This document shows positions 41,298 through 58,973 of a stretch of DNA of 64,000 bases, piece by piece. The stretch is from Bacillus rhizoplanae (GTDB taxonomy: Bacteria > Bacillota > Bacilli > Bacillales > Bacillaceae_G), in the NCBI RefSeq assembly GCF_917563915.1, contig NZ_CAKJTI010000002.1, positions 62,001 through 126,000 on the forward strand. Reading direction: 5' to 3'. Each line of letters starts with the position of its first letter. The stretch's first letter is position 1. A model generated the notes under the pieces. The model worked only from the letters and a program-made list of their open reading frames with translations, made no database searches and was not told the DNA's origin. The position numbers and the translations under genes are program-made.

Positions 41298-41612
41298 ATG
41301 AAATCATTAGAAAGCATGGAGCAATTTCAAGAATTGAAAAACGAAGAGAAAGTGATCTTTTTATTCTCAGCAGACTGGTGCCCGGATTGCCGTTTTATTG
41401 ATCCATTTATGCCGGAAGTAGAAGAAAAATATAGCGAGTTCTCTTTCTATTATGTAGACCGTGATGAATATATCGATCTATGCATCAAATTAGACGTATT
41501 TGGTATTCCAAGCTTTGTCGCTTACAATAAGGGAGAAGAAATTGGTCGTTACGTTAACAAAGATCGTAAAACACAAGAGCAAATTGAAGAGTTTATTGAA
41601 GGGTTAAAATAA
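41298..41612 (+). CDS. ytpP: Thioredoxin-like protein YtpP
   Basis: A 104-residue thioredoxin-fold protein with the active site WCPDC (residues 27-31, FSADWCPDCRFIDPF) and the cis-Pro loop FGIPSFVAYNKGEEIGRYV. The variant WCPDC differs from the WCGPC of classical thioredoxin. ATG 41298 follows GGGAGGA. A bcr1 copy begins at its stop codon: the TAA lies inside the ATAAA target duplication. A terminator follows the bcr1 element. Confidence 0.9.
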   Translation: MKSLESMEQFQELKNEEKVIFLFSADWCPDCRFIDPFMPEVEEKYSEFSFYYVDRDEYIDLCIKLDVFGIPSFVAYNKGEEIGRYVNKDRKTQEQIEEFIEGLK

Positions 41613-41613
41613 A

Positions 41614-41751
41614 GTGAAACTTCCGTCAGTGGGGGGTTCCCCCGTTGATGGTTAGTTGAACCAATTGGGCTTTTACGGGTAGTTATCCTCCCTATTTTCC
41701 TCGTTTCTCTTTGAATCTTGAGGTAGGGGTCTTACTCCCGCGAATAGCGGG
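41614..41751 (-). repeat. bcr1 element, full-length copy inserted at the ytpP stop codon
   Basis: The element reads in the reverse orientation, from GTGAAACTTCCGTCAGTGGG to CGCGAATAGCGGG. Flanks are ATAAA (41609-41613) and ATAAG (41752-41756). It lies between the ytpP stop codon and the ytpP terminator. Confidence 0.9.
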
Positions 41752-41782
41752 ATAAGCTGTTTCCAGCCAATTACAATGCGAA

Positions 41783-41820
41783 AAACAACCTCTATCTTCA
41801 CATGTGGAGGTTGTTTTTTT
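41783..41820 (+). terminator. Terminator of ytpP, downstream of bcr1
   Basis: AAACAACCTC/GAGGTTGTTT stem with 14-nt loop, then TTTT. It lies 20 bp before the ytpQ start codon. Confidence 0.8.
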
Positions 41821-41839
41821 CGGAAGGGAGGTACATCAT

Positions 41840-42652
41840 ATGAAAATGACGAGTAAAAAGATGAAAGACGAGCTCATGAAGCGCCTTGAAAGAGCAGAGT
41901 GGAGTTTTCAGTACGATAGTGAAAAGGAGACACTTCGCATTGAACAGACAGATACGGAAAAGGGAATCACGGTTTCTCTTCCGGGTATCGTAGCGAAGTG
42001 GGAGGTAAAGAAAGAGAAGGCAATTGACGAAGTTGTATATTACATAGAAGAAGCACTTGTTGCGATGCATAAAGAAGTAAAAAGTACGGCGAAAGTTTTG
42101 CCGGTCATTCGTTCAACGTCCTTTCCGAAAGAAGCGGAAAAAGGAAATCCGTTTGTCATGACAGAGCATACAGCAGAAACACGTATTTACTATGCATTAG
42201 ATTCAGATAAAACATATCGCCTTATTGATCAGCGTTTGTTGCAAAAACTTGGAATGACAGAAGAACAAGTGCGTGAAATGGCATTGTTCAACGTTCGTTC
42301 TTTAAGTGCTGATTTTAAGCGAGACGAAGTCGCTGGAAATACGTTTTATTTCTTAAATACAAATGACGGCTATGACGCAAGCCGTATTTTAAACGATTCA
42401 TTATTACGAGAGATGCGTAAACAAATTTCAGGTGATATGGTTGTTGCGGTTCCACACCAAGATGTATTAATTGTTGCTGATATCGAGAACAAAATCGGTT
42501 ATGATATTATTGCACAAATGACAATGAAGTTTTTTGCAGAAGGTCATGTTCCGATTACATCACTTTCATTCGTATATGAAGATGGTAATTTCGAACCAAT
42601 CTTTATTTTGGCGAAAAATCGGAAGGAACGAAGTGAAAAAGAGAAAGGATGA
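41840..42652 (+). CDS. ytpQ: DUF1444 family protein YtpQ
   Basis: A 270-residue cytoplasmic protein of the DUF1444 family, matching YtpQ of B. subtilis in context (ytpP-ytpQ-ytpR). Conserved blocks include [32 protein letters not shown] and [21 protein letters not shown]. The frame opens at 41804, inside the preceding terminator, but ATG 41840 follows GGGAGG. The function is unknown. Confidence 0.85.
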
Positions 42653-42657
42653 ACAAA

Positions 42658-43263
42658 GTGAACGTTTTTTATAACCTTGAAGGTATTGGGGATACATTAA
42701 TTGTTGCCCTGCAAGATATTACATTAGAAAACCGTACATTTGAGCGTAAAGGAGATGTAGCGCGCGTTTTCGATCGTGAAAGTAATGTAACAGCAGGATT
42801 CAACATTTTTAATGCTTCTTCTTATATGGAAGTAACAGAAACAGGCAATCTTACATTAACGAAAGAGCTTGTTGAAAAAATCAATGAAATTTTAGCAAAG
42901 AACGATTTTACAGAAAAAGTAGAAGCGGATCTTTCTCCAAAATTTGTTGTTGGTTACGTAGCAGAAAAAGAAAAACATCCAAATGCGGATAAATTAAATG
43001 TATGTAAAGTAGAAGTTGGGACAGAAACATTACAAATCGTATGCGGTGCGCCAAACGTTGACGCAGGTCAAAAAGTAGTTGTTGCGAAAATCGGTGCGGT
43101 AATGCCAAGCGGTATGTTAATTAAACCAGCAGAGCTTCGTGGTATTCCATCTTCAGGTATGATTTGCTCAGCACGTGAATTAGAGCTTCCAGATGCTCCA
43201 CAAGAAAAAGGAATTCTTGTACTTGAAGACAGCTACGAAGTTGGACAAGAGTTTAAATTTTAA
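42658..43263 (+). CDS. ytpR: tRNA-binding-domain protein YtpR (PheRS beta-like)
   Basis: A 201-residue protein. An N-terminal DUF4479 domain (about residues 1-85) is followed by an EMAP/CsaA-type tRNA-binding OB fold ([67 protein letters not shown]), as in the beta subunit of phenylalanyl-tRNA synthetase. GTG 42658 is better spaced from AAAGGA than ATG 42649 and gives the length of B. subtilis YtpR. It follows ytpQ by 5 bp. Its role is unknown. Confidence 0.88.
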
Positions 43264-43268
43264 ATATA

Positions 43269-43287
43269 TGGCCCGTTAGAGCGGGAT
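43269..43287 (-). repeat. Short bcr1-end-like remnant
   Basis: TGGCCCGTTAGAGCGGGAT resembles the reverse complement of a bcr1 left end (CTGCCCGTTAATGCGGGAT). The rest of the element is absent. It lies between the ytpR stop codon and its terminator. Confidence 0.4.
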
Positions 43288-43288
43288 G

Positions 43289-43323
43289 AAAAATAGTCTC
43301 ATTGTTAATGAGGCTATTTTTTT
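43289..43323 (+). terminator. Terminator of ytpQ-ytpR
   Basis: AAAATAGTCTCATT/AATGAGGCTATTTT stem (one mismatch) with TTTT following. Confidence 0.85.
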
Positions 43324-43395
43324 ATGGTTATATATTTTCTTCGTAAAGAATTTCATTAAAAAAGGAATATACATATCCTCCGTACAATATTATAA

Positions 43396-43411
43396 AGTGT
43401 AAAATTACACT
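43396..43411 (+). promoter_or_regulatory. 16-bp palindromic operator, copy 2
   Basis: AGTGTAAAATTACACT, identical to the site in front of the gene at 15527 and in the same orientation and distance (18 bp) relative to the start codon. Here the dyad extends one base further on each side (AAGTG...CACTT). Confidence 0.65.
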
Positions 43412-43429
43412 TTAAGGGTAGGGGATTGT

Positions 43430-43828
43430 ATGAAAAAAATAATTGTCATATCACTTCTTAGTATCGTTGCTGCTATCGCTGTTTTGTTTTACGTTGCTTT
43501 TAACGGTAATCCTATTAGTAAATATGTAATGGAGAGAGATACAAGGTTGTATTTAGAAAAGAAGGGATATAAAAAAGATGAGATTCTTTCTATAGAATCA
43601 ACATATAACATGAAACGGAATACTGACTGCATTGAAGGAACCATTACGAAGGTTGTATTTAAGGACGAGCAGAACGTAACATATATATACGTTAAGCATC
43701 GAAAGGACAATCGTATTTTACAACACTGTGAATATTATAATCACGATACAGGAACATGGGAGGTATGGGAGGTTGAATTTAATTCTAAACGTAAACATAT
43801 GGAGAGAACTTGTATAAAAATGTATTGA
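43430..43828 (+). CDS. DUF3139 family membrane-anchored protein
   Basis: A 132-residue protein with one N-terminal transmembrane segment (IIVISLLSIVAAIAVLFYVAF). It is followed by a DUF3139 domain (GNPISKYVMERDTRLYLEKKGYKKDEI, with a compact beta-rich rest containing DCIEGTITKVVFKDEQNVTYIYVK). Three cysteines occur in the exported part. ATG 43430 follows AGGGTAGGGG. A shared palindrome in its leader links its regulation to the membrane-protein gene at 15527. The function is unknown. Confidence 0.8.
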   Translation: MKKIIVISLLSIVAAIAVLFYVAFNGNPISKYVMERDTRLYLEKKGYKKDEILSIESTYNMKRNTDCIEGTITKVVFKDEQNVTYIYVKHRKDNRILQHCEYYNHDTGTWEVWEVEFNSKRKHMERTCIKMY

Positions 43829-43830
43829 AG

Positions 43831-43855
43831 TGGTCCGGTAGACGGACTTTTTTTA
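43831..43855 (+). terminator. Terminator of the DUF3139 gene
   Basis: GTCCG/CGGAC stem with a 5-nt loop followed by TTTTTTT. Confidence 0.7.
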
Positions 43856-44034
43856 TGTATGAGTTTTTTATTTTGATATCTAATGTAGTGATTCTCCTTT
43901 TTCGATTGAAACAGTTTTTATCTCGTAATATTTTTCACTTTTCTGTAAATAAAATGAAAGCAATTTCATCTGCACTTTTTGCCGAATGCTGATACAATAA
44001 AGGGTGTTACTATTTAGTAGAAAGAGTGGTAAGC

Positions 44035-47000
44035 ATGCTAGATTGGATGAAAAAGCTTTTTAAAAAAGAGGAAGAAAATGAAGCAACAACATGGATAGAA
44101 GCAGAAAATTCTGTAGAGACAAAGGTTACTTCTCACATTCCTCGTGTAAACTACTACTCTGATAAACGAGAAGATGAGCGGCAAGTGTCCAAGCCATATT
44201 CAAGTGGGAATTTTCGTTTTCCATTAATTCCTGACGGAGGACTTGAGGAGAACACAATGAAATCGCCTCGGAGAGAGGAGCGCGTTATACAAGAAATACC
44301 GATTAGAGAACGACGCCAATCAAGACGAGTAGAAGAGACACAGATTGAACTGATAGAAGAGACACAGATTGAACCGATTATTCAAGAGGTAACGAAAGCA
44401 AAGTCTACTTCTGGAGAAGAAAGTCACCGAAGACCGTTTCGTCCAACAGAAATGATTTCTCCGATTTTTGGATATAAACGCCCAGAAGTAGGGGGACAAG
44501 AACATACTGAAAGTAAGAAACAACAACAAGAAGATATTGAGATATCAATAGAAGGAAAAGCAGTTGTTGATGCGTGGTTTGAGAAGAATGGCTATGCAGT
44601 TTACGGTTTATCACAAGATGTTCTACCAGAACAAAATCAAGTAGAATCTACACAAATCGAAGCCGATGCAATGCAAGAGGGATCGGTAGTTAAGAAGTCT
44701 GTTGTTGATACATGGTTAGAGAAAAATGAAACAACATTCGATGAAACGGTGCTACATAATCGTGATACAGAACAGGCAAATATGTCCGAAGATGCTGTTG
44801 TGTTAAAGGAAGATTCTAGTCAGCAAATTTATTCATTTGAAAGTGAAACAGCTGCGTCTCAAGGTGAAAATGAATTACCTGAACCTATTGCTGTGAAGAC
44901 AGAATTTGAAATGAAAGAAGAAGCAAAAGAATCTGAAGAGTCTAAGGAAACAGAAGAAATAGAGTTATCTTCAGAGACAGAAGAATCGGATGTACAAGAA
45001 GAAACACAAGAATCTGAAGAGCCTAAGGAAATAGAAGTAGTGGAAGTATCTTCAGAGACGGAAGAATCGGATGTACAAGAAGAAACATTTGAAGTTGAAG
45101 AGCCTAATGAAATAGAAGTAGTGGAAGTATCTTCAGAGATAGAAGAATCCGTTATGCAAGAAGAAGCAAAAGAATCTGAAGAGCCTAAGGAAATAGAAGT
45201 AGTGGAAGTATCTTCAGAGATAAAAGAATCCGTTATGCAAGAAGAAGTACAAGAATCTGAAGAGCCTAAGGAAATAGAAGAAGTAGAGTTATCTTCAGAG
45301 ACAGAAGAATCGGATATACAAGAAGAAACACAAGAATCTGAAGAGCCTAAAGAAATAGAAGTAGTGGAAGTATCTTCAGAGATAAAAGAATCCGTTATGC
45401 AAGAAGAAGTACAAGAATCTGAAGAGCCTAAGGAAATAGAAGTAGTGGAAGTATCTTTAGAGATAAAAGAATCCGTTATACAAGAAGAAGTACAAGAATC
45501 TGAAGAGCCTAAGGAAATAGAAGTAGTGGAAGTATCTTCAGAAATGGAAGAATCGGATATACAAGAAGAAGCACAAGAATCTGAAGAGCCTAAGGAAATA
45601 GAAGTAGTGGAAGTATCTTCAGAGATAAAAGAATCGGATATACAAGAAGAAGCACAAGAATCTGAAGAGCCTAAGGAAACAGAAGAAGTAGAGTTATCTT
45701 CAGAGACGGAAGAATCGGATGTACAAGAAGAAACATTTGAAGTTGAAGAATCTAAGGAAATAGAAGTAGTGGAAGTATCTTCAAAAACGGAAGAATCCAA
45801 TACACAAGAAGAAGTACTTGAGGCTGAAGAGTTCAAGGAAGCATTTTCAATAATAGAAGAACCGCTTGAAGCTAAGGAAGCGGAAGCAGTAGAGTTATCT
45901 TCAGAAATGGAAGAGTCCAATATACAAGAGGAAGTACTTGAAGCTTCAATAACAGAAGTACCGCTTGAATCTAAGGAAGTGGAAGCAGTAGAGTTATCTT
46001 CAGAAATGGAAGAATCCAATATACAAGAAGAAGTACTTGAAGCGGAAGCAATAGTAACTGAAAATTTCGTTCATGAACAAAGTGAAGAACAAACACAGCA
46101 AGCTGTACAAAGCTTTGCAAACACATTAATAGGAGAAACAGAGGAAAAACAAAATGCAGTTGCTGAGCAGACTAAAGTAAAAACAGAGCAGTCCAAAGTA
46201 GATGCAACGAAAGAACCAAACCGCGAGAAGAAACGTTTCGTTCCGTTTAATGTAGTGATGTTGAAGCAAGATAAACGGATGTTAGAAGAAAAGCGCCGTG
46301 TAGTAATGCCATCACAACCGGCTCCCTCACACAATGTGACTGAGCAAAAACAAAATATTGAACCGCCAGCAGTGAAACAACCAGTGCAAGAAGAGATGAC
46401 GCATCGAGTTGTTGTAGAAACAAAACAAGATATTCGTAATGTTTTACAGGCACCGCCAACGTATGAGTTTCCACCATTAGCACTTTTAAATATCCCAAGT
46501 TATCCGGCGGCACATGATGCTGAGTGGTTAGAGGAACAAAAAGAGCTGTTAAATACGACATTCCATAATTTCCATGTCGGTGCAAAAGTGGTGAATGTGA
46601 CGCAAGGGCCAGCTGTAACTCGTTTTGAAGTGCAGCCAGAACCTGGTGTGAAAGTAAATAAAATTACGAATTTAAGTGACGATATTAAACTAAATTTAGC
46701 TGCTCGTGATATTCGAATTGAGGCGCCAATTCCAGGGAAAAATGCAGTTGGAATTGAAGTGCCGAATAAAGAGAGCAAAGCTGTATTTCTTCGTGAAATT
46801 TTACGAAGCCCAGTGTTTACGAAAAGCGAATCGCCGCTGACAGTCGCACTTGGTCTTGATATTTCAGGGACACCGATTGTAACGGATATTCGAAAAATGC
46901 CGCACGGTTTAATTGCTGGGGCAACGGGATCAGGAAAAAGTGTATGTATTAATGCAATTTTAACAAGTATTTTATATAAAGCGAAGCCACACGAAGTAAA

Positions 47001-47880
47001 GCTGATGCTCATTGATCCGAAGATGGTTGAACTTGCGCCGTACAATTCTGTACCGCACCTTGTTGCGCCTGTTATTACGGATGTAAAAGCGGCGACGGCG
47101 GCATTAAAGTGGGCAGTAGAGGAAATGGAACGTCGTTATGAATTGTTTGCGCATGCAGGTGCGCGTGATTTAACGCGTTACAATACAATTATGAACGAAC
47201 AAGAAATTCCAGGCGAGACGTTGCCGTATATCGTTATTGTTATTGATGAGCTGGCTGATTTAATGATGGTTGCACCGGGTGATGTGGAAGAAGCGATTTG
47301 CCGGATTGCCCAAAAAGCAAGAGCGTGTGGAATTCATTTATTAGTAGCGACGCAGCGTCCATCTGTAGATGTTATTACAGGGTTGATTAAATCGAACATT
47401 CCAACGCGAATTGCTTTTACAGTGTCATCGCAAGTAGACTCACGTACAATTATTGATATTGGCGGAGCTGAGAAATTACTTGGCCGTGGTGATATGCTAT
47501 TTTTAGATAATGGAACATCAAAACCGGTTCGTGTGCAAGGAGTATACGTTTCAGATGAAGAAATTGAAAAGTCTGTTGCGCATGCGAAACGTCAAATGAA
47601 GCCAAATTATTTATTCCATCAAGAAGACCTATTGGCAAAAACAGAACAGCAAGAATCTGAAGATGAGTTGTTCTTTGAGGCATGTCAATTTGTTGTAGAA
47701 CAAGGGGGAGCATCCACGTCTTCTGTGCAGAGAAGATTCCGAATTGGGTATAATCGTGCAGCTCGTCTTATTGAAGACATGGAAGCGCAAGGGATTATTT
47801 CAGAAGCACGCGGAACAAAACCAAGAGACGTCCTCATTACAGAAGATGAATTTGCTGCAATGCAGGATATACATGTATAA
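44035..47880 (+). CDS. sftA: DNA translocase SftA (FtsK/SpoIIIE family) with an expanded acidic repeat
   Basis: A 1281-residue soluble FtsK-type translocase that helps clear chromosomal DNA from the division septum. The C-terminal motor (about residues 800-1200) has Walker A GATGSGKS at about 961-968, Walker B VIVIDELADLMM, and ATQRPSVDVITGLIKSNIPTRIAFTVSS. The gamma winged helix (EACQFVVEQGGASTSSVQRRFRIGYNRAARLIEDME) is at the end. There are no transmembrane helices, as in SftA and unlike SpoIIIE. The N-terminal linker carries about eleven 27-residue acidic repeats, making the protein about 330 residues longer than I recall for B. subtilis SftA. ATG 44035 is preferred to GTG 44026. Confidence 0.92.
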   Translation: MLDWMKKLFKKEEENEATTWIEAENSVETKVTSHIPRVNYYSDKREDERQVSKPYSSGNFRFPLIPDGGLEENTMKSPRREERVIQEIPIRERRQSRRVEETQIELIEETQIEPIIQEVTKAKSTSGEESHRRPFRPTEMISPIFGYKRPEVGGQEHTESKKQQQEDIEISIEGKAVVDAWFEKNGYAVYGLSQDVLPEQNQVESTQIEADAMQEGSVVKKSVVDTWLEKNETTFDETVLHNRDTEQANMSEDAVVLKEDSSQQIYSFESETAASQGENELPEPIAVKTEFEMKEEAKESEESKETEEIELSSETEESDVQEETQESEEPKEIEVVEVSSETEESDVQEETFEVEEPNEIEVVEVSSEIEESVMQEEAKESEEPKEIEVVEVSSEIKESVMQEEVQESEEPKEIEEVELSSETEESDIQEETQESEEPKEIEVVEVSSEIKESVMQEEVQESEEPKEIEVVEVSLEIKESVIQEEVQESEEPKEIEVVEVSSEMEESDIQEEAQESEEPKEIEVVEVSSEIKESDIQEEAQESEEPKETEEVELSSETEESDVQEETFEVEESKEIEVVEVSSKTEESNTQEEVLEAEEFKEAFSIIEEPLEAKEAEAVELSSEMEESNIQEEVLEASITEVPLESKEVEAVELSSEMEESNIQEEVLEAEAIVTENFVHEQSEEQTQQAVQSFANTLIGETEEKQNAVAEQTKVKTEQSKVDATKEPNREKKRFVPFNVVMLKQDKRMLEEKRRVVMPSQPAPSHNVTEQKQNIEPPAVKQPVQEEMTHRVVVETKQDIRNVLQAPPTYEFPPLALLNIPSYPAAHDAEWLEEQKELLNTTFHNFHVGAKVVNVTQGPAVTRFEVQPEPGVKVNKITNLSDDIKLNLAARDIRIEAPIPGKNAVGIEVPNKESKAVFLREILRSPVFTKSESPLTVALGLDISGTPIVTDIRKMPHGLIAGATGSGKSVCINAILTSILYKAKPHEVKLMLIDPKMVELAPYNSVPHLVAPVITDVKAATAALKWAVEEMERRYELFAHAGARDLTRYNTIMNEQEIPGETLPYIVIVIDELADLMMVAPGDVEEAICRIAQKARACGIHLLVATQRPSVDVITGLIKSNIPTRIAFTVSSQVDSRTIIDIGGAEKLLGRGDMLFLDNGTSKPVRVQGVYVSDEEIEKSVAHAKRQMKPNYLFHQEDLLAKTEQQESEDELFFEACQFVVEQGGASTSSVQRRFRIGYNRAARLIEDMEAQGIISEARGTKPRDVLITEDEFAAMQDIHV
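44917..46045 (+). repeat. Tandem 81-bp repeats inside sftA
   Basis: About eleven copies of a 27-codon unit (consensus EVQESEEPKEIEVVEVSSE, then IKESVMQE), then two diverged units with EVLEAEE- and VELSSEMEESNIQE-type sequence. The repeats are close enough to keep an open frame on the opposite strand over most of the stretch. Such arrays change copy number easily. Confidence 0.9.
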
Positions 47881-47941
47881 GAAAAGGTTTTGCTGTATAC
47901 TAAGAGAAAACGCTGGATAGTAAAGTAGGGAGTATAGCGAC

Positions 47942-49063: not shown

Positions 49064-49068
49064 GAGGA

Positions 49069-49103
49069 AAAACTGATAGGGAATTGACCCTATCAGTTTT
49101 TCT
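49069..49103 (+). terminator. Terminator of the nicotinate phosphoribosyltransferase gene
   Basis: AAAACTGATAGGG/CCCTATCAGTTTT stem, then TCTG. Confidence 0.85.
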
Positions 49104-50590: not shown

Positions 50591-50598
50591 GGTAGAAA

Positions 50599-50741: not shown

Positions 50742-50831
50742 AAAAGAGTTTCCTTTTGAATTGTTATTTTTTTTTAGAAAAATTGTAATTTCAAATGTTA
50801 GAATAATAAGAAAAAATAAGGGGAGAGGAAA

Positions 50832-51383: not shown

Positions 51384-51400
51384 AATGACGCTTCTTTTTT
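51372..51400 (+). terminator. Terminator of the GNAT gene
   Basis: AGAAGCGT/ACGCTTCT stem overlapping the stop codon, with TTTTTT following. Confidence 0.85.
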
Positions 51401-51449
51401 CTGAATTTATCAACAATTGATGGTATAATATGGATAAGGAGTGATAAAG

Positions 51450-51860
51450 ATGGAGTTTTACGTGAAAAAAAATCCAGTTATGATACTGTTTACTGTCATT
51501 ATGCTGTTACTTGTCGTAATCTCTCCCGTTATATCATTTATGCTGAACGAGAAAGGTTGGCTGACGGGACTTGCAGCAGGAATCTTATTTCTAGCTGCAA
51601 ATATTATTCCCATTTCTGAAATGTTTGTATTTCAGCATAAAGTTGTTGATGGTGAATTAATAACAGGGCATTGGCTAACAAAGAAGAAAATTCCGACTGT
51701 AAGCATTCGTGCTATGCGATTTGTTGGAAAAAACAATAAAAGCTTAGAAATCACGTACGGTAGTAATTTTGAAGTACATATGATTACAATGCCAAAAGAG
51801 AAAGAAAAGTTCATGGAGCTGCTTTTGCAAGGAAGTCCTTATGTGAGAATAGAAGACTGA
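51450..51860 (+). CDS. Two-helix membrane protein with a bacterial PH-like domain
   Basis: A 136-residue protein with two N-terminal transmembrane helices (VMILFTVIMLLLVVISPVISFML and GLAAGILFLAANIIPISEMFVF). A small beta-rich domain follows (HKVVDGELITGHWLTKKKIPTVSIRAMRFVGKNNKSLEITYGSNFEVHMITMPKEKEKFMELLL) that looks like a bacterial PH-like domain. ATG 51450 follows AAGGAGTG. The function is unknown. Confidence 0.7.
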   Translation: MEFYVKKNPVMILFTVIMLLLVVISPVISFMLNEKGWLTGLAAGILFLAANIIPISEMFVFQHKVVDGELITGHWLTKKKIPTVSIRAMRFVGKNNKSLEITYGSNFEVHMITMPKEKEKFMELLLQGSPYVRIED

Positions 51861-51899
51861 GTATTATATTTTCAGGGAGAAGCTGATGGAGGTTTTACT

Positions 51900-52475
51900 A
51901 TGACTAAAATAGGTATAATTCGTCACGGAAGTACACCGTGGAATAAAGAAGGAAGAGCACAGGGGAGTTCAGAGATTTCCCTTGATCAAGATGGAATATT
52001 AGATGCGTATAAACTTGCAGAGCGCTTGCGTAAGGAGAATTGGGATTTCATATATTCTAGTAATCTATTAAGAGCAAAGCAAACTGCTGAAATTATAGGA
52101 GAAAAAATTGCGAATATACCAATTTACTTGGAACCTAGGCTTCGTGAAGCAGGCGGAGGACAGATTGAAGGGACAACGGAAGAAGAGCGAGTTTTAAAAT
52201 GGGGAAAGAATTGGAGAGAGCTAGATTTAGGAATTGAAAGTGCTGATAGTGTAATCACAAGAGGTCTTTCGGTAATTGAGGAGATTGCATCTAAACATGA
52301 TAACAGGAATATATTAATTGTTAGTCATGGTGCATTCATTAGACATCTTCTAAAGGAACTAGTACCGCATTTAAATATGGTAGAATCTCCGAGAAACACG
52401 TCTCTAACTAAACTTATAAAAGCAAAGAATGGTTGGGATTCAGAACTATATAATTGCACAGTACATTTGGGATAG
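51900..52475 (+). CDS. Histidine phosphatase family protein (phosphoglycerate mutase-like)
   Basis: A 191-residue member of the histidine phosphatase superfamily. The phospho-acceptor motif IIRHGSTPWNKEGRAQGSSEISLDQDG (His8) is followed by SSNLLRAKQTAEII (second Arg), the proton donor region PRLREAGGGQIEGTTEEE, and the second catalytic His in ILIVSHGAFIRHLL. The substrate is unknown; the size matches PhoE-like broad phosphatases. ATG 51900 is preceded by GGAGG. Confidence 0.9.
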   Translation: MTKIGIIRHGSTPWNKEGRAQGSSEISLDQDGILDAYKLAERLRKENWDFIYSSNLLRAKQTAEIIGEKIANIPIYLEPRLREAGGGQIEGTTEEERVLKWGKNWRELDLGIESADSVITRGLSVIEEIASKHDNRNILIVSHGAFIRHLLKELVPHLNMVESPRNTSLTKLIKAKNGWDSELYNCTVHLG

Positions 52476-52481
52476 AGGAAA

Positions 52482-52520
52482 AAGAGGGATTGACGCTTTT
52501 TAAAGTAAAGCTCCCTCTTA
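52482..52520 (+). terminator. Hairpin after the phosphatase gene
   Basis: AAGAGGGA/TCCCTCTT arms with a longer inner loop that contains a second pairing (GCTTT/AAAGC-type). Only a weak T tract follows. Confidence 0.45.
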
Positions 52521-52623
52521 TCTGCTTATCTCTGCTTTCTTCTAATTTCATCACACAATCTTTTTCGGGGTCTTCTCAGTGCTGTTATTTGATTGGAATG
52601 TAGGGAAAAGGGAGATGTGAAAT

Positions 52624-53127
52624 ATGATAAATTCCACATTAGAAATGTATGACTACCATGTGTGGGCGACTAAAAAAATGATTGATCGATTAAAAGAACT
52701 GTCTCAGGATGTTTACACCAAGGAAATGCAGAGTATTTTTCCTTCTATATCAAAAGCGTTATCTCATATCTATCTCACCGATCACTTATGGTTAGATGTG
52801 ATTTCTGGTAAAAGTATGAATGAAGCATTCGAATTAGTAAATCAATTAATAGAGCAAACAGAGTCAAAAAGTATCGAGGAAATGGAGAGCATATTTTTCG
52901 ATTTATCAAGGAAATATACAGACTTTCTAAGTGTTCAAGAAGATATGGAAAAGGTAATAGTAGTTGATAATCCATATGCTGGTTTACTTACAACTTCTAT
53001 TTCTGAATCTATACTACACGTTGTTACTCATGGATCTTATCACCGTGGCAATATCGCAGCTATGTTACGACAACAAGGTCACGCTTCCGTTATGCAAGAT
53101 TATGGTCTTTATTTGTATAAGAAGTAA
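52624..53127 (+). CDS. DinB-family metal-dependent protein
   Basis: A 167-residue DinB/YfiT-like four-helix bundle protein. The three metal-binding histidines are in place: SKALSHIYLTDHLWLDVI (His at about residue 42) and HVVTHGSYHRGNIAAMLRQQGH (about residues 135 and 139). Members may act as thiol-dependent transferases; the substrate is unknown. ATG 52624 follows GGGAGATG. Confidence 0.88.
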   Translation: MINSTLEMYDYHVWATKKMIDRLKELSQDVYTKEMQSIFPSISKALSHIYLTDHLWLDVISGKSMNEAFELVNQLIEQTESKSIEEMESIFFDLSRKYTDFLSVQEDMEKVIVVDNPYAGLLTTSISESILHVVTHGSYHRGNIAAMLRQQGHASVMQDYGLYLYKK

Positions 53128-53197
53128 TTCTCTATTAGGAAAAGAGTACCTTTATTTTGTATTTAGCTTGTAATGTAGAAGCAAGGGAGAAATAAAT

Positions 53198-53461
53198 ATG
53201 AATTCTTGGGTTATAACTGCATTTGTTTTTTTCGGTGTCATTTATATTTCAGATCGTATCAATCAAATTAATAAAAGAGTAAAACGAACAGAAAATCAAT
53301 TAGAGCAAATAGCTAAACAAGTGGGTGTTCCAGAGCATGTAAGCAATGAAGAGATCCATCAGTTAGTTAAAGATGGAGAGAAAATTAGAGCGATTCAAAA
53401 AGCCTAGAAAGATCTAGGATTATCATTACGTGAGTCTAAAGATTCTATTGATTCTTTATAA
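53198..53461 (+). pseudogene. Membrane-anchored L7/L12-C-terminal-like protein, interrupted by a nonsense codon
   Basis: The intact part (69 codons) has one transmembrane segment (WVITAFVFFGVIYI), a coiled coil (RINQINKRVKRTENQLEQIAKQ) and the beginning of a ribosomal L7/L12 C-terminal-like domain (IHQLVKDGEKIRAIQKA). TAG at 53405-53407 interrupts it, and the same frame continues KDLGLSLRESKDSIDSL to TAA 53459-53461. That matches the rest of the family motif (AIK-x-x-REx-TGLGLKEAKDYVDSL), the TAG replacing a usual Arg-type position. This is a recent point nonsense mutation; a 69-residue truncated product may still be made. ATG 53198 follows AAGGGAG. Confidence 0.75.
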
Positions 53462-53496
53462 TACATATAATTTCCGCTAACGAACCTCATGTTGAA

Positions 53497-53528
53497 AAAC
53501 AAAAATGAGCACAGCAACCTGTGCTCAC
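53497..53528 (-). terminator. Terminator of the M29 aminopeptidase gene
   Basis: TGAGCACAG/CTGTGCTCA stem with a 4-nt loop. The minus-strand U-tract is TTTTTGTTTTTC, so it serves the minus-strand gene. Confidence 0.8.
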
Positions 53529-53538
53529 TTTCTCTATC

Positions 53539-54654
53539 TTATTTTAAGTTCTCAGGATTTAATGCTTCTAATTCAGGTACAACGAAGCGGCCGTCTTTAC
53601 GGATCAATACGTCATCGAAATAAATTTCTCCGCCGCCGTATTCAGGGCGTTGGATACATACTAAATCCCAGTGGATGTTAGAGTTGTTGCCGTTCCATGC
53701 ATCTTCGTATGCTTGTCCTGGTGTGAAGTGGAAGCTGCCGTCGATTTTCTCATCGAATAGAATATCGCCCATTGGATGTAAAATGTATGGGTTTACGCCA
53801 ATTGCGAATTCACCAACATAGCGTGCGCCTTCATCTGTATCGAAAATTTTGTTAATGCGTTCTGTATCGTTTGCAGTTGCTTCAACGATTTTACCGTCTT
53901 TAAATGTAAGTTTTACATTTTCGAACATGTAACCGTTGTATGGAGATGGTGTGTTGTAAGAAACTGTACCGTTAACAGAATCGCGAACAGGCGCAGAGTA
54001 TACTTCGCCGTCTGGAATATTTAAGTGACCAGCACATTTAATTGCTGGAATGTCTTTAATTGAGAATGTTAAGTCAGTTCCAGGTCCAACAAGACGTACT
54101 TTGTCTGTTTTGTTCATTAACTCAACAAGATTGTCCATCGCTTTATCCATTTTAGCGTAGTCTAAGTTACATACGTCAAAGTAGAAGTCTTCAAAGCCTT
54201 CTGTGCTCATTTTTGCAAGCTGTGCCATAGAAGCGTTTGGATAGCGAAGTACAACCCATCTTGTTTTTGGAACACGAATGTCTCTATGTACTTTTTTACC
54301 TACTGTGTTGCCGTAAATTTTCATGCGTTCGCTTGGAACGTCAGCTTGTTCATTTACGTTATCACCAGAGCGAAGGCCGATATAAGCATCCATATCTTTC
54401 ATTACGCTTGCTTCATATGCAGCGATTTGCTCGAAATGTTCTTCTGTTGCGCCCATCATTAAAGAGCGGTCTACTTGATGATCTTTTAATAGTACGAATG
54501 GATAACCACCAGCTTCATATGCAGCTTTTACAAGTGCTGTTACAAGCTCTTTTTGTAAGCCGAAGTTTTCGATTAATACTTTTTCGCCTTTTTGCAAACG
54601 AATAGAGTAATTAATTAAATTTTTTGCTAATGTTTCAATACGTGGGTCTTTCAT
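53539..54654 (-). CDS. ampS: M29-family aminopeptidase (AmpS-type)
   Basis: A 371-residue thermophilic-type (M29) metallo-aminopeptidase. It lacks about 40 N-terminal residues relative to longer forms. Family blocks are LAKNLINYSIRLQKGEKVLIEN, VRLVGPGTDLTFSI, GHLNIPDGEVYSAPVRDSVNGTVSYNTPSPYNGYMFENVKLTFKDGKIVEATA (with metal-ligand Glu), VGEFAIGVNPYI, SFHFTPGQAYEDAWNGNNSNIHWDLVCIQRPEYGGGEIYFDDVLI. ATG 54654 follows GGGAGG. General peptide turnover in the cytoplasm. Confidence 0.9.
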   Translation of the reverse strand: MKDPRIETLAKNLINYSIRLQKGEKVLIENFGLQKELVTALVKAAYEAGGYPFVLLKDHQVDRSLMMGATEEHFEQIAAYEASVMKDMDAYIGLRSGDNVNEQADVPSERMKIYGNTVGKKVHRDIRVPKTRWVVLRYPNASMAQLAKMSTEGFEDFYFDVCNLDYAKMDKAMDNLVELMNKTDKVRLVGPGTDLTFSIKDIPAIKCAGHLNIPDGEVYSAPVRDSVNGTVSYNTPSPYNGYMFENVKLTFKDGKIVEATANDTERINKIFDTDEGARYVGEFAIGVNPYILHPMGDILFDEKIDGSFHFTPGQAYEDAWNGNNSNIHWDLVCIQRPEYGGGEIYFDDVLIRKDGRFVVPELEALNPENLK

Positions 54655-54839
54655 ATGTAAAGCCTCCCTTATATGTGTATCCTTACTTATTGTAACCTAC
54701 TTGTCTGAATTTGTTTAATAATTTATGTTGCAGTTGCCAAACAAATATGAAAATTAATACGAAATATGGAACAATTAGAATGAAACGGAAAATGATTGTA
54801 TAATAGAAAAAAGCATAAAAAGATAAAGGAGTGATTCGT

Positions 54840-55343
54840 ATGCAAATTCTTTTATACGTCAGTGTAGCCATTATCGCAATTGCGTTTGCCGTATTAGTTG
54901 TATATGTATGTAAGACTTTAGTATCTGTCCAAAAAACGTTAGAAAATGTAGCAAGTACGATGGAAGGTCTTGAAAAACAAATGCAGGGCATTACTGTAGA
55001 AACAGAGCAGCTTCTTCATAAAACAAATGCATTAGCAGAAGATATTCAACAGAAATCACAATCGTTAAATAAAGTTGTGGAAGGTGTAGAGGGAATTGGA
55101 ACAACGATTCATTCTTTAAACACAAGACTACGCAGCGTTTCTGATTCTGTTGCAGATCAAGTAGAAAATAATGCAGATAAAGTAGCACAAGTGGTGCAAT
55201 GGAGTAATGCGGTCATTGATGTGTATAATCGCTTTCGTGCAAAAAAGAAAGAGGATGAAGTAGAGCAGCTTGAAAAGCCAGAGAAAAAACCGAAGAAGGA
55301 AAAGAAATTACCGCGACTTCCGATTCGAATGAGAGGCGAATGA
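54840..55343 (+). CDS. ytxG: DUF948 family stress protein YtxG
   Basis: A 167-residue protein with an N-terminal membrane segment (ILLYVSVAIIAIAFAVLVVYVC). A long coiled coil (about residues 30-125: ENVASTMEGLEKQMQGITVETEQLLHKTNALAEDIQQKSQSLNKVVEGVEGI) and a very basic tail (PEKKPKKEKKLPRLPIRMRGE) follow. It matches the YtxG/DUF948 family, sigma-B-controlled in B. subtilis. The B. subtilis operon is ytxG-ytxH-ytxJ; here ytxH is missing and ytxJ starts 2 bp after the stop. ATG 54840 has AAAGGAG. Confidence 0.85.
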   Translation: MQILLYVSVAIIAIAFAVLVVYVCKTLVSVQKTLENVASTMEGLEKQMQGITVETEQLLHKTNALAEDIQQKSQSLNKVVEGVEGIGTTIHSLNTRLRSVSDSVADQVENNADKVAQVVQWSNAVIDVYNRFRAKKKEDEVEQLEKPEKKPKKEKKLPRLPIRMRGE

Positions 55344-55344
55344 A

Positions 55345-55671
55345 ATGAGCATGACGAAGATTGAAACAATGGAGCAATTTGAAGAAGTAACAGCAAGTAA
55401 AGGGCCATATATATTGTTTAAACATAGTACAACATGTCCAATTAGCCACGGTGCTTTCACAGCGTTTCAAGAATATCGCAGTGAAGAGCAAGCTGTGCCG
55501 GCATATTATTTATATGTGCAAGATGCACGTCCTGTTTCAAATAAGGTTGCCGAGCATTTTGAAATTAGACATGAATCACCGCAAGTATTATACATAAAAG
55601 ATGGTAAAGTGCTATGGCATGCATCGCATTGGAAAATTACAAAGCAAGCGTTACAAGAGAATATAAAGTGA
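55345..55671 (+). CDS. ytxJ: Monothiol bacilliredoxin-like protein YtxJ
   Basis: A 108-residue thioredoxin-fold protein of the DUF2847/YtxJ family with the single-cysteine active site TTCPISHGA (Cys at about residue 32), linked to the bacillithiol system. The rest (YYLYVQDARPVSNKVAEHFEIRHESPQVLYIKDGKVLWHASHWKIT) is conserved. Its stop codon TGA comes from an inserted bcr1 element: the gene ends ATA-AAG-TGA where ATAAA is the target duplication. Rejoining the flanks would give ATA-AAA-TAA, the same protein. Confidence 0.88.
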   Translation: MSMTKIETMEQFEEVTASKGPYILFKHSTTCPISHGAFTAFQEYRSEEQAVPAYYLYVQDARPVSNKVAEHFEIRHESPQVLYIKDGKVLWHASHWKITKQALQENIK

Positions 55672-55752
55672 AACTTCCATCAGTGAGGTTTTTTCATCCC
55701 CCACTGATGGTTAGTTGAACCAATCGGGGTCTTACTGCCCAAAAGTAGCGGG
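55668..55752 (-). repeat. Short (85-bp) bcr1 derivative at the ytxJ stop codon
   Basis: GTGAAACTTCCATCAGTGAG through TTAGTTGAACCAATCGGGGT and CCCAAAAGTAGCGGG. It retains both ends and the inner stem but lacks the central CCACCT-type segment. Perfect ATAAA duplications flank it (55663-55667 and 55753-55757). It lies between ytxJ and the ytxJ terminator. Confidence 0.85.
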
Positions 55753-55764
55753 ATAAAATAAGGG

Positions 55765-55792
55765 AAAGCAAGCAAATGCGCTTGCTTTTTTA
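55765..55792 (+). terminator. Terminator of ytxG-ytxJ, downstream of bcr1
   Basis: AAAGCAAGC/GCTTGCTTT stem, 6-nt loop, then TTT. Confidence 0.8.
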
Positions 55793-55987
55793 ATTTTTTG
55801 AAAATAATATTGACGTACCATGCGTTTTACGATTAAATTAAGAAAAAATAACGATTCCATACGTAATCTAATGCGAAGTGTATGAAGTGACATCCGCATA
55901 TGTATCATATATAATAAGTTATCTTATGGATGATATTTATATCTTTTTATTAATATACATATAAATTTTGAAAGAGGTGGCTTTATT

Positions 55988-57058
55988 ATGGCATCACAGG
56001 AATTAGATCGTTTACGTTCTCAAATTGATGAAAAAAACTTGCAAATTTTAAAATTATTAAATGAGCGCGGTCGTCTTGTACAAGAGGTTGGTAAATTAAA
56101 AGAAGTACAAGGTGTGAAACGTTTTGATCCAGTACGCGAGCGTAAAATGCTCGATTTAATCGCAGAAAACAATGATGGACCATTCGAAACATCAACGCTT
56201 CAACATTTATTTAAACAAATTTTTAAAACAGGTTTAGAATTGCAAGAAGATGATCATCGTAAAGCACTTCTTGTATCTCGTAAGAAAAAGTCAGATGATA
56301 CGATTGTTGATATTAAAGGTGAAAAAATTGGTGATGGCAATGCTCACTTTATTATGGGGCCATGTGCAGTTGAAAGTTATGAGCAAGTTCGTCAAGTAGC
56401 GGAAGCAATGAAAGAACAAGGATTAAAACTTATGCGCGGCGGAGCATTTAAACCGCGTACATCACCATATGATTTCCAAGGTCTTGGTGTTGAAGGGTTG
56501 AAAATTTTACGCCAAGTAGCAGATGAGTATGATTTAGCTGTAATTAGTGAAATTTTAAATCCAAATGATATTGAAATGGCGCTTGATTACGTAGATGTAA
56601 TTCAAATTGGTGCGCGCAATATGCAAAATTTTGAGCTATTAAAAGCCGCTGGTTCTGTCAATAAGCCAGTATTATTAAAACGAGGATTATCCGCAACGAT
56701 TGAAGAGTTTATGTATGCGGCAGAATATATTATTGCACAAGGGAACGGCGATATTATTTTATGTGAGCGCGGCATTCGTACGTACGAGAAAGCAACGCGA
56801 AATACATTAGATATTTCTGCTGTACCAATCTTAAAGAAAGAAACGCACTTGCCGGTTGTTGTAGATGTAACACATTCGACAGGACGCCGTGATTTATTAT
56901 TGCCAACTGCAAAAGCAGCGATGGCAATCGGAGCAGATGCGATTATGGCAGAAGTGCACCCTGACCCAGCTGTAGCACTTTCAGATTCAGCGCAGCAAAT
57001 GGATATTCCGGAATTTAATGCATTTATGAACGAATTAAAAGCATTTCGTATGAGATAA
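55988..57058 (+). CDS. aroA: Bifunctional chorismate mutase / DAHP synthase
   Basis: A 356-residue fusion. Residues about 1-90 form an AroQ-type chorismate mutase ([35 protein letters not shown]), and residues about 105-356 a type I-beta DAHP synthase ([103 protein letters not shown]). It catalyses the first step of aromatic amino acid synthesis; the mutase domain also gives feedback sensing, as in B. subtilis AroA(G). ATG 55988 follows AAAGAGGTGG. A 43-bp bcr1 derivative begins right after its stop codon. Confidence 0.95.
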
Positions 57059-57059
57059 A

Positions 57060-57102
57060 GTGAAACTTCCATCAGTGGGGGTCTTACTGCCGTTAATGTG
57101 GG
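57060..57102 (-). repeat. Minimal (43-bp) bcr1 derivative at the aroA stop codon
   Basis: GTGAAACTTCCATCAGTGGG followed directly by GGTCTTACTGCCGTTAATGT and GGG: only the two ends of bcr1 remain. Flanks are ATAAA (57055-57059, containing the aroA stop TAA) and ATAAG (57103-57107). A terminator follows. Confidence 0.8.
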
Positions 57103-57116
57103 ATAAGAATGGCTTC

Positions 57117-57153
57117 AAAATCTATGTAGCTGAATGCTGCATAGATTTTTTTC
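57117..57153 (+). terminator. Terminator of aroA, downstream of the bcr1 derivative
   Basis: AAAATCTATG/CATAGATTTT stem with a 13-nt loop, then TTT. Confidence 0.8.
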
Positions 57154-57234
57154 TCGAAAATAAGTATTTTTCTATTTAAAATATGAAAATATAAGAAAAG
57201 GAACAAATTTTTTCGAAACTTTTTCGGGAAAATA

Positions 57235-57264
57235 TTGTCTCAATCCTTATTTGTATCGTATCAT
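57235..57264 (+). promoter_or_regulatory. Probable sigma-A promoter of ccpA
   Basis: TTGTCT (57235-57240) and TATCAT (57259-57264) are separated by 18 bp. The transcript would start near 57271, about 105 bp before the ccpA start codon, and would run into the hairpin at 57285-57318. Confidence 0.5.
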
Positions 57265-57284
57265 TAGTAAAAGGGCTCGGGAGT

Positions 57285-57318
57285 GACATCTTCAAGTAGA
57301 GTGGATGTCTTTTTTTTC
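57285..57318 (+). terminator. Terminator-like hairpin in the ccpA leader
   Basis: GACATC (57285-57290) pairs with GATGTC (57304-57309), followed by nine T. It lies between the probable ccpA promoter and the ccpA start codon, so it could attenuate ccpA or create a short leader RNA. Confidence 0.6.
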
Positions 57319-57376
57319 ATTCAAGTTAACCGATACATAGTATATAGATAAATTTTATAAAGGAGTGTGTGAAAAG

Positions 57377-58375
57377 ATGAACGTAACAATATATGATGTA
57401 GCGCGCGAAGCAAATGTCTCAATGGCAACAGTATCACGTGTTGTGAACGGCAATCCAAATGTAAAACCGACAACAAGAAAGAAAGTACTAGAGGCGATTG
57501 AGCGCCTTGGCTACCGTCCAAATGCAGTAGCACGAGGATTAGCAAGTAAGAAAACAACAACAGTAGGGGTTATTATTCCAGATATCTCTAACACGTTTTA
57601 TGCAGAACTTGCACGTGGTATTGAAGATATCGCAACAATGTACAAATATAATATTATTTTAAGTAACTCTGACCAAAACAAAGAGAAAGAGTTCCATTTA
57701 TTGAATACAATGCTTGGTAAGCAAGTAGACGGCATCGTATTTATGGGAGAAGATATTACAGACATTCATGTAGAGGAATTTAAAAAATCTCCTGTTCCAA
57801 TCGTACTTGCGGCATCGTTTGATGAGCAAAACATTACACCATCTGTAAATATTGATTACACACAAGCAGCATATGATGCAATGAAGCATTTCTTAGAGCA
57901 AGGTCATACACGCATTGCTTTCGTAACTGGTCCTTATGTTGATAAAGCAGGCAGCGCAAAAAAATTACAAGGATATAAACAAGCATTAGAAGAAGCTGGT
58001 ATTGCTTACGACGAAGAGCTTGTTGTTGACGGTGATTATACATACGATTCAGGTATGGAAGCATTAGATAAGCTATGGGAACTTGCTGAAAAGCCAACAG
58101 CAGTATTCGTATCCTCTGATGAAATGGCATTAGGTGTGATTCATGCAGCTCAAGATAAAGGTCTAAACGTGCCAAACGATTTAGAAGTACTTGGTTTTGA
58201 CAATACGCGTCTTGCAATTATGGTACGCCCGCAGCTTTCAACAGTTGTACAACCAATGTATGACATCGGAGCAGTTGCAATGCGCTTATTAACAAAATAC
58301 ATGAACAAAGAAACAGTAGAAGATCATACGGTTATCTTACCGCACAGTATTAAGTTTAGAGATTCAACAAAGTAA
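57377..58375 (+). CDS. ccpA: Catabolite control protein A (CcpA)
   Basis: A 332-residue LacI/GalR-family regulator, the master regulator of carbon catabolite control in Firmicutes. The N-terminal DNA-binding domain [60 protein letters not shown] is the CcpA form, followed by the periplasmic-binding-protein-like core that binds HPr-Ser46-P ([72 protein letters not shown]). ATG 57377 is preferred over the frame start at 57365 because it gives the standard N-terminus. Likely cre targets in this window are at 5374, 12300 and 33999. Confidence 0.97.
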
Positions 58376-58382
58376 TAAGGAG

Positions 58383-58416
58383 AAAACTCGTGGAAATACA
58401 ACCACGAGTTTTTTAT
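58383..58416 (+). terminator. Terminator of ccpA
   Basis: AAAACTCGTGG/CCACGAGTTTT stem, 8-nt loop, then TTTATTTT. Confidence 0.9.
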
Positions 58417-58456
58417 TTTGTAAAGAGTTCAATAGTCACTGTGACATTTGTTTTTA

Positions 58457-58475
58457 GATGGAAGTTTCGCTTTAC
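58457..58475 (+). repeat. bcr1 right-end fragment
   Basis: GATGGAAGTTTCGCTTTAC matches the bcr1 right end and target with one change. It faces the inverted end of the next derivative (58500-58522), making an 18-bp inverted repeat (TAAAGTGAAACTTCCATC). Confidence 0.65.
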
Positions 58476-58504
58476 CACTATTTCTAATGTATAATGATTA
58501 TAAA

Positions 58505-58549
58505 GTGAAACTTCCATCAGTGGGAGATCATACTGTTCGTGAATAGCGG
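58505..58549 (-). repeat. Minimal (45-bp) bcr1 derivative with perfect target duplication
   Basis: GTGAAACTTCCATCAGTGGG joined to AGATCATACTGTTCGTGAAT and AGCGG. Flanked by ATAAA at 58500-58504 and 58550-58554. Same structure as the derivative at 57060. Confidence 0.8.
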
Positions 58550-58575
58550 ATAAAACGATGTGAGGGGGAGATGAA

Positions 58576-58848
58576 ATGATAATTCTTTGGGGAATTACGC
58601 TTTGTGTGACGGCTATATTCGCTTATATGACGTTAAAGCAGAGTGGTATGAGACGCTTTATTCCTGGTGGTGTTTTGGCAGGGATAGCCCTAATCACATA
58701 CGTTACTTCGATTTTTTTAGAAAGTGCTGGAGAACAAATACATGACAGTTTTGTGTTTTTTTCCACTACATTATTTATAGGCGCTATTATTATTTTACTT
58801 GTCGCAGGTATTATTTTGTTTATTCATACAAATTCAGAAACGCTATAA
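58576..58848 (+). CDS. Small three-helix membrane protein of unknown function
   Basis: A 90-residue hydrophobic protein with three predicted transmembrane segments (ILWGITLCVTAIFAYMTL, GGVLAGIALITYVTSIFL, FFSTTLFIGAIIILLVAGIILFI). I recognise no family. ATG 58576 follows GAGGGGGAG. The gene is flanked on both sides by bcr1 derivatives, and its stop TAA lies inside the ATAAA target of the downstream one. Confidence 0.65.
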   Translation: MIILWGITLCVTAIFAYMTLKQSGMRRFIPGGVLAGIALITYVTSIFLESAGEQIHDSFVFFSTTLFIGAIIILLVAGIILFIHTNSETL

Positions 58849-58849
58849 A

Positions 58850-58935
58850 GTGAAACTTCCGTCAGTGAGGTTTTTTTCATCCTCCACTGATGGTTAGTTG
58901 AACCAATCGGGCTCTTACTGCCCAAAAGTAGCGGG
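58850..58935 (-). repeat. Short (86-bp) bcr1 derivative with perfect target duplication
   Basis: GTGAAACTTCCGTCAGTGAG to CCCAAAAGTAGCGGG, almost identical to the derivative at 55668 and with the same internal deletion. ATAAA flanks at 58845-58849 and 58936-58940. A terminator follows at once. Confidence 0.85.
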
Positions 58936-58940
58936 ATAAA

Positions 58941-58973
58941 AAAGAGAGCAGATCTATGTCTGCTCTCTCTTTG
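58941..58973. terminator. Terminator between the small membrane gene and mscL
   Basis: AAAGAGAGCAGA/TCTGCTCTCTCTTT stem, 6-nt loop. It is bracketed by A and T tracts and can serve both convergent genes. Confidence 0.8.

Follow-up and report, generated by a model that had tools for sequence, protein, structure and literature searches.

The repeat bcr1 is described, in passages of two papers (PMC6542083, PMC3446304), as an element of about 155 bp that is flanked by TTTAT, contains hairpins, lies between genes and is partly transcribed. In the title of a 2004 paper and the accessible text of a later one it is called specific for the Bacillus cereus group, and a passage of PMC3733652 lists it among classical miniature inverted-repeat transposable elements (MITEs) such as RUP and NEMIS. 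In this study, we analyzed bcr1 copies that lie on stop codons in a stretch of 64,000 nucleotides from Bacillus rhizoplanae (contig NZ_CAKJTI010000002.1, positions 62,001 to 126,000 of the forward strand; hereafter, the window), together with bcr1-like elements in other genomes.

In IS200/IS605 transposons, one cleavage site is carried by the element and the other is a host target, according to sections of PMC5934647 and PMC7290912; rules for these transposons are also given in a part of PMC6006769. The transposons use the template of the lagging strand, so that their orientation records replication (a passage in PMC5371812), although a counter-example without strand preference is mentioned in PMC7290912. 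For another group, the repetitive extragenic palindromic (REP) sequences, a section of PMC3733652 states that the ends often supply a stop codon and that most REPs are located downstream of genes.

We propose that bcr1 is probably a non-autonomous, IS200/IS605-like element composed of ends only, and that its pattern at stop codons would result from the asymmetry of the target, from a replication bias and, probably, from the survival of harmless insertions. The elements favor one target pentamer, overlap stop codons in excess of every null that we applied, are oriented according to the replication strand and carry two covarying hairpins.

Results

Copies of bcr1 on stop codons

A profile hidden Markov model (HMM) detected 10 bcr1 copies in the window, five on each strand. 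Five are full-length and five are shortened or degenerate; the conserved ends ATAAAGTGAAACTTCC...GCGGGATAAA and the length of about 155 bp were both found. Following an earlier reading of the window (the original prediction), we take these repeats to be, presumably, the published bcr1. Rfam, searched at gathering thresholds, gave no match in the window.

The original prediction held that four genes have a bcr1 element that starts at the stop codon and lies in sense, and all four cases are real. The copy after ytpP is full (41609..41756, plus strand), with the stop TAA (41610-41612) inside the first ATAAA (41609-41613) and ATAAG as the second pentamer. A very short copy follows an aroA-like gene for 3-deoxy-D-arabino-heptulosonate 7-phosphate (DAHP) synthase/chorismate mutase (57055..57107, plus strand); here TAA occupies 57056-57058 within ATAAA, and the second pentamer is again ATAAG. 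The third of these copies, also short, follows a DUF3917 gene (58845..58940, plus strand; TAA at 58846-58848 in ATAAA). After ytxJ/brxC, a short copy that has lost one hairpin (55663..55757, plus strand) provides the stop as an in-frame TGA (55669-55671) within ATAAAGTGA. The described use of ATAAA at three genes and of an element-internal TGA at ytxJ was therefore correct. A fifth copy had been overlooked: a degenerate element on the minus strand (33115..33242) begins, in sense, at the stop (TAG) of gene 33239-33550 on the same strand. The bcr1-end remnant predicted after the malic enzyme gene is real and consists of two inverted right ends, head to head, on the stop of this gene (14968..15002, assigned to neither strand). 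Altogether, 5 of the 10 bcr1 copies in the window overlap a stop codon; among the background ATAAA sites that were classed as stop or intergenic, 3 of 143 do so (p = 2e-5).

The larger statistical test was carried out in genomes outside the B. cereus group. About 2.8 Mb were analyzed, comprising 1.6 Mb of G033, a complete genome, and sixty 20-kb stretches picked around known hits in G168, G056 and ten other genomes. Genes were predicted with our own simple Markov caller and elements with nhmmer. Including the window, 225 elements were obtained; 23 that lacked a 5' end were left unclassified, and 9 tandem downstream copies were dropped from the remaining 202, leaving 193, of which 10 belong to the window and 183 to the other genomes.

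Overlap with a stop codon was found for 31 of 179 stop-or-intergenic elements of these other genomes, compared with 294 of 5498 background sites (odds ratio (OR) 3.7, p = 2e-8). The corresponding numbers were 22 of 170 and 204 of 5408 when only TAA inside ATAAA was counted. We also derived a null from the intergenic region of each element itself, with informative cases coming from 51 elements that have a sense upstream gene: of 22 informative cases, 19 had the stop as the chosen site where 10.4 were expected, and with only ATAAA sites admitted the figures were 19 of 20 and 13.1. Overlap beyond a random choice of intergenic ATAAA sites, which the original prediction had made its own test, is thus present. 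At one insertion in G033 (L161), the orthologous gene ends at the same codon in five relatives, with TAA in four (L259-L262) and TAG in the fifth (L258).

Sense copies beyond the stop were not enriched (OR 1.1 at 0-20 bp and 0.6 at 20-60 bp). Antisense copies were enriched at 0-20 bp after stops (12/176 vs 81/5361, OR 4.8; 5 of 17 such copies were excluded because they had a negative computed distance, which is impossible for the null) and at 20-60 bp (29 vs 359, OR 2.75; 2.1 within the lagging orientation). Many of these 3'-end antisense copies are located at T-tracts, in proportions not above those of null TTTAT sites (11/29 vs 172/360 at 20-60 bp).

Orientation and the replication strand

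The orientation of bcr1 follows replication, with the lagging-strand template as the preferred one. GC skew, calculated per stretch, served to define the leading strand; it was near zero in two stretches (L123 and L129, one element each). Among intergenic elements outside the window, 128 were in the lagging and 20 in the leading orientation, against 2484:2720 for intergenic ATAAA sites (OR 7.0, p = 3e-22). The bias was also present between convergent or divergent genes (40:8 vs 1029:1105), where both flanking genes are on the lagging strand (12:3 vs 241:261, p = 0.017) and in gaps of 300 bp or less (64:9 vs 727:849). In G033, HMM hits numbered 53 minus and 10 plus in block 300001-1100000, and 88 plus and 24 minus in block 3700001-4500000; GC skew and the majority gene strand flip together with the bcr1 strand between these blocks, and hits chained into elements gave 81 lagging and 20 leading. 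All 67 matches of G168, collapsed to 39 places, were divided into 18 minus and 1 plus in the first half of the genome and 17 plus and 3 minus in the second. The same pattern by halves occurred in G056 (14, 5; then 9, 4; among 33 of 51 matches) and in G008 (13, 4; then 6, 3; among 30 of 60 matches).

At stop codons the bias was weaker than elsewhere (17 lagging and 14 leading vs 89:205 in the null, OR 2.8). Here, sense orientation is obligatory whenever ATAAA contains the TAA of the gene, because the target pentamer is asymmetric. The shared orientation of the copies at stop codons, which had been regarded as additional information, therefore reflects this asymmetry, and the remaining copies mostly follow replication. 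The statement that bcr1 is always in the same orientation was selective: in the window, four of the copies are antisense to both neighboring genes. The non-stop copies of the window, 4 lagging and 1 leading, are too few for a test (p = 0.21).

The target pentamer and the hairpins

Pentamers were examined in 165 full elements, including window copies; 11 of 176 full elements lacked a readable second pentamer and were excluded. The first pentamer was ATAAA in 155 of the 165 and the second in 137, the search for the latter being anchored on GAT, so that its first two pentamer positions cannot vary. Both flanks were ATAAA in 130. The sequence around the pentamer resembles background, i.e., the preference is for ATAAA only. 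A variant second pentamer occurred in 28 elements and was accompanied by the same variant in the first copy in only one of them; discordant cases were distributed 25 vs 7 (p = 0.002). Variants of the second pentamer that are unmatched by the first are not expected of a target duplication. These counts indirectly suggest that no target-site duplication takes place, and that one pentamer would be borne by the element and the other by the host.

The element has two hairpins near its ends, on the same strand. A window copy folded as single-stranded DNA had a z score of -9.5. Compensatory changes were present at 21 of 37 hairpin pairs among 44 non-redundant copies; shuffles gave 8.2 +/- 1.8, and slid controls 8-10.

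Other copies in the window

According to our own gene calls, the four full minus-strand copies, at 9970..10125, 15607..15757, 18684..18839 and 30449..30602, are those antisense to both neighboring genes. The last of these sits in the terminator T-tract (TTTTTTAT) of a TrmB-like gene (29628-30440), and at the orthologous position of G033 the T-tract and TTTAT are present but bcr1 is not. A very short plus-strand copy (58500..58554), in sense and away from a stop codon, lies between a LacI-type (ccpA-like) gene and the DUF3917 gene, and a remnant of a bcr1 right end is present nearby on the minus strand (58455..58475). Elsewhere in the window, a large gene (44026-47880) contains eleven 81-bp repeats in register and, as read from DNA, would encode an acidic, Glu-rich protein.

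Terminators downstream of bcr1

Read by eye, the terminator stems at the four named genes start approximately 28 (ytpP), 4 (ytxJ), 10 (DAHP synthase) and 2 bp (DUF3917) past the second pentamer. The terminators of ytxJ (55762..55791) and DUF3917 (58943..58968), both on the plus strand, were also listed by a terminator scan, which identified only these two (55762 and 58943); those of ytpP (41783..41817) and the DAHP synthase gene (57117..57153), likewise on the plus strand, were placed by eye within approximate bounds and are absent from the scan. An automatic finder returned 30, 30, 36 and none for the four sites; it starts measuring where the HMM alignment ends, and the unaligned tail of short copies is thereby included.

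The nearness of terminators that the original prediction emphasized is real (about 2-28 bp), but does not exceed native spacing. In genes free of bcr1, the medians of the distance between stop and terminator are 11-25 bp. Three orthologues, those of ytpP and DAHP synthase in G033 and that of ytxJ in G056, have the stop near the terminator, and their 3' ends are free of bcr1. For ytpP and DAHP synthase of G056, the terminators are farther off, at about 60-80 bp; the ytpP match of G033 has a bcr1 element on its upstream side, at a distance of no more than 400 bp. A terminator within 120 bp downstream was found for 19 of 36 stop-class elements and for 387 of 1326 bcr1-free gene ends (p = 0.005, gap length unmatched). 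This excess fits operon ends being safer positions, and would also fit a role in 3'-end formation.

Relatives of bcr1 in other genomes

Another family, that of a genome with a contig labelled Sporosarcina globispora, has elements similar to bcr1 (E-value up to 0.001) in 109 of 193 genomes; copy counts in this survey are lower bounds, since about four candidates were scored per genome. The best match aligned with positions 5-151 of the query (156 positions) at 84% identity. In the stretches compared, window proteins were at most 90% identical to those of G033 and at most 83% to those of G056, which is presumably too low for membership in the B. cereus group, and we took these two genomes, in particular, to lie outside it for this reason. 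None of 55 loci from the genome collection had a B. cereus-group title, and the plasmid and phage collections contained no Bacillus record matching bcr1. As judged from sequence similarity, the bcr1 family would therefore extend beyond the B. cereus group, which goes against the published specificity.

Matches were also observed on plasmids and in the viral collection. A large plasmid of Pseudalkalibacillus hwajinpoensis (L065, 3001-3068), another bacillus genus, has a bcr1-like element, as does Klebsiella grimontii plasmid pNY3A (L066, 3001-3093; 79% identity), where it possibly represents contamination or misassembly. In the viral collection, the sole exact match of an 18-base bcr1 core was in IMGVR_UViG_2926488731_000002 (L064, 2495-2512), which has two HMM hits. 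G168 contains tandem arrays of bcr1-like elements (C1:4053947-4055188 and 1976728-1977639) with a period of about 155 bp and matches overlapping by a few bases, an overlap that is expected if new copies enter the pentamer of an old copy and share it. Long variants of about 275 bp, with an extra GC-rich inverted segment, occur at 15700-16900 of L192 and at other loci of G033.

Genes of RAYT type

RAYT (TnpA-REP) was considered as the main candidate enzyme. Close RAYT relatives (E-value up to 1e-55) showed a weak link to bcr1, which was present in 29 of 40 genomes with and 80 of 153 without such a gene (p = 0.03). For any RAYT-like gene (E-value 1e-15), the numbers were 81 of 142 with and 28 of 51 without (p = 0.87), and 11 of 24 bcr1-rich genomes had no RAYT-like gene at this threshold. 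RAYT-like genes in L200, L206, L216 and L217 had no bcr1 within 1.5 kb, and three of the four scored 53-78 bits against NCBIfam REP_Tyr_transpos, i.e., below its cut-off of 80. RAYT was dropped as the main candidate, as it tracks bcr1 weakly or not at all. Alignments of RAYT-like genes in G113, G129, G163, G125, G108, G016, G145, G144 and others have exactly one TAA within the aligned stretch, which could be a shared in-frame stop or the result of an alignment overrunning the gene end.

A composite bcr1 candidate, represented by one pair of ends, was also rejected: its first end is the full-length element counted at 401069, the second pentamer of which had been missed by the regular expression.

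Discussion

A model for the placement of bcr1

The data suggest the following mechanism. The element would insert at an asymmetric ATAAA (TTTAT on the opposite strand), mostly when TTTAT is on the template of the lagging strand; its first ATAAA would be its own, as the right-end cleavage site is in IS200/IS605, and the second would be the host target. A single strand would be the form that moves. Insertion at the A-TAA-R of a stop codon would place the element in sense, with its own ATAAA giving the same TAA in frame. Because the ATAAA of the element restores this TAA, neither the protein nor the terminator nor the following promoter would be affected. Antisense copies could enter the T-tract of a terminator, which would be kept.

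Survival of such harmless insertions is probably the cause of the enrichment at stops, and a harmless-site filter acting in both orientations accounts best for the excess at stop codons together with the antisense excess at 3' ends, although not for everything. In our opinion, bcr1 acts like the palindrome-associated transposable elements (PATEs) of IS200/IS605 and is a putative member; no Y1 transposase gene with bcr1 ends was found in the loci scanned, and the guide rule is not clearly followed.

Several observations weigh against this model. The search for an enzyme yielded no Y1 partner: Y1_Tnp (PF01797) was searched in 21 genomes, and among 21 Y1 loci scanned from five of the first six (only positions being recorded for the other fifteen) none had bcr1 ends, the best E-value of a permissive HMM being 0.67. 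Four 14-base matches to bcr1 ends, each with two mismatches and each in a different Y1 locus, were taken as chance. In bcr1-bearing G176, G038, G055 and G195 there was no Y1_Tnp match at E-value 0.001, and no composite bcr1 copy was present in the 2.9 Mb scanned. In IS200/IS605 elements, a guide tetranucleotide that matches the cleavage site precedes each hairpin on its 5' side. The sequences conserved 5' of the two bcr1 hairpins, TTAA and CTAA, are unlike the AAAA at the resident IS200 of G168, which also uses TTAT, and depart from the pairing of IS608 as well as from that of the resident IS200. Counts of G.T and A.C wobbles do not discriminate which strand folds. For two G033 insertions the relatives were too diverged for base-exact joins at empty sites, and none were available for the B. 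cereus group. The strand bias was weak in G151 (7 minus, 2 plus; then 5 plus, 4 minus; among 20 of 46 matches) and absent in G003 (13 plus, 9 minus; then 4 plus, 1 minus), and 5 of the 10 window copies are in the disfavored orientation. With regard to selection, the antisense excess at 0-20 bp dropped to an OR of 2.7 in gaps of 300 bp or less (7/73 vs 59/1576). A pure harmless-site filter would not have led us to expect an enrichment of copies within 40 bp of a start codon that face it with the ATAAA end (21/176 vs 313/5361, OR 2.2), nor a depletion of copies far from genes in long gaps; because of this depletion, part of the gene-end excess is due to gap length. Targeting of insertion could also explain the enrichment at stops.

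Alternative explanations

In that alternative, the enzyme would be directed to gene ends, e.g., by terminator hairpins, R-loops or exposed strands, and no selection would be needed. This idea agrees with the finding that copies of either orientation are enriched at the 3' ends of genes, with the weaker strand bias at stops (OR 2.8, compared with 7 elsewhere) and with the excess near some start codons, which is unlike the prediction of a harmless-site filter. However, no sequence beyond the pentamer is preferred, and antisense copies at T-tracts are not above null TTTAT sites (11/29 vs 172/360 at 20-60 bp); we regard targeting as unlikely. A similarly doubtful extension of the model, in our view, is that bcr1 represents a Bacillaceae-wide family of single-strand repeats that use the lagging template, are moved by an enzyme other than Y1 (no Y1 match being present in several bcr1-rich genomes) and have ends that restore stops and spare terminators, which would make gene ends a safe landing place. 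An earlier paper describes bcr elements in terms of site-specific recombination with a 5-bp TTTAT duplication. ATAAA on both flanks of 130 of 165 copies is what this mechanism would give, but the variant second pentamer is matched by the first in 1 of 28 cases, and orientation follows replication, so that we consider it quite improbable for bcr1.

The original prediction suggested that bcr1 serves as a 3' untranslated region (UTR) module or is transcribed with its host gene; in this case, sense copies after stops would be kept for mRNA stability or 3'-end formation. Transcription within UTRs has a basis in the literature, where a passage of PMC3446304 places bcr1 in the UTRs of mapped transcripts and describes it as co-transcribed, and a functional module is consistent with stop overlap above every null tried and with the excess of downstream terminators (19/36 vs 387/1326, p = 0.005, gap length unmatched). 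A 3'-UTR module would predict sense enrichment across the interval from stop to terminator. There was none, and the inference is accordingly weak: within this interval antisense copies, and not other sense copies, are enriched. In addition, orthologues lack bcr1, most copies are antisense to leading-strand genes, and the same passage reports a correlation with mRNA half-life for bcr3 only. A function as a 3'-UTR module is, therefore, very unlikely in our assessment.

Implications

The element bcr1 itself and its transcription in UTRs were already known; the title of the 2004 paper does not agree with the occurrence of the family beyond the B. cereus group. Under the preferred model, in which bcr1 is an IS200/IS605-like element composed of ends only, insertion of a single strand into the lagging-strand template would provide a testable mechanism for bcr1, for which no transposition enzyme is named in the portions of the literature searched. 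Much of the placement at stop codons would be explained without a new RNA function, and, given that another family has relatives in 109 of 193 genomes, bcr1 can be studied in soil bacilli. The literature searched, as far as its text was accessible, contained no replication-oriented or IS200-type account of bcr1; the main bcr1 papers are outside it, and such an account could be in print.

Comparison with known systems

Our elements share with published bcr1 the length of about 155 bp, the TTTAT flanks, the hairpins and the intergenic location, and differ in having full-length relatives in another family and in a replication-strand bias that is unmentioned in the accessible parts of the literature searched. 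Like classical MITEs, bcr1 is short and non-coding and has many copies near genes; unlike in MITEs, its ends are not inverted repeats of each other when aligned, and the flanking pentamers are not duplication-like. Many intergenic hairpin copies are also typical of REP/REPIN sequences with RAYT, whereas bcr1 has no GTAG foot and did not flank (within 1.5 kb) the four RAYT-like genes examined. In contrast to IS200/IS605 PATEs, no Y1 transposase gene with bcr1 ends was found in the loci scanned, and the hairpin-adjacent sequences do not clearly follow the guide rule of IS608 or of the G168 IS200. As in these PATEs, the termini of bcr1 are not inverted, one short cleavage site would be fixed and the other host-borne, a hairpin is located near each end, orientation follows replication and insertion occurs beside a fixed pentanucleotide.

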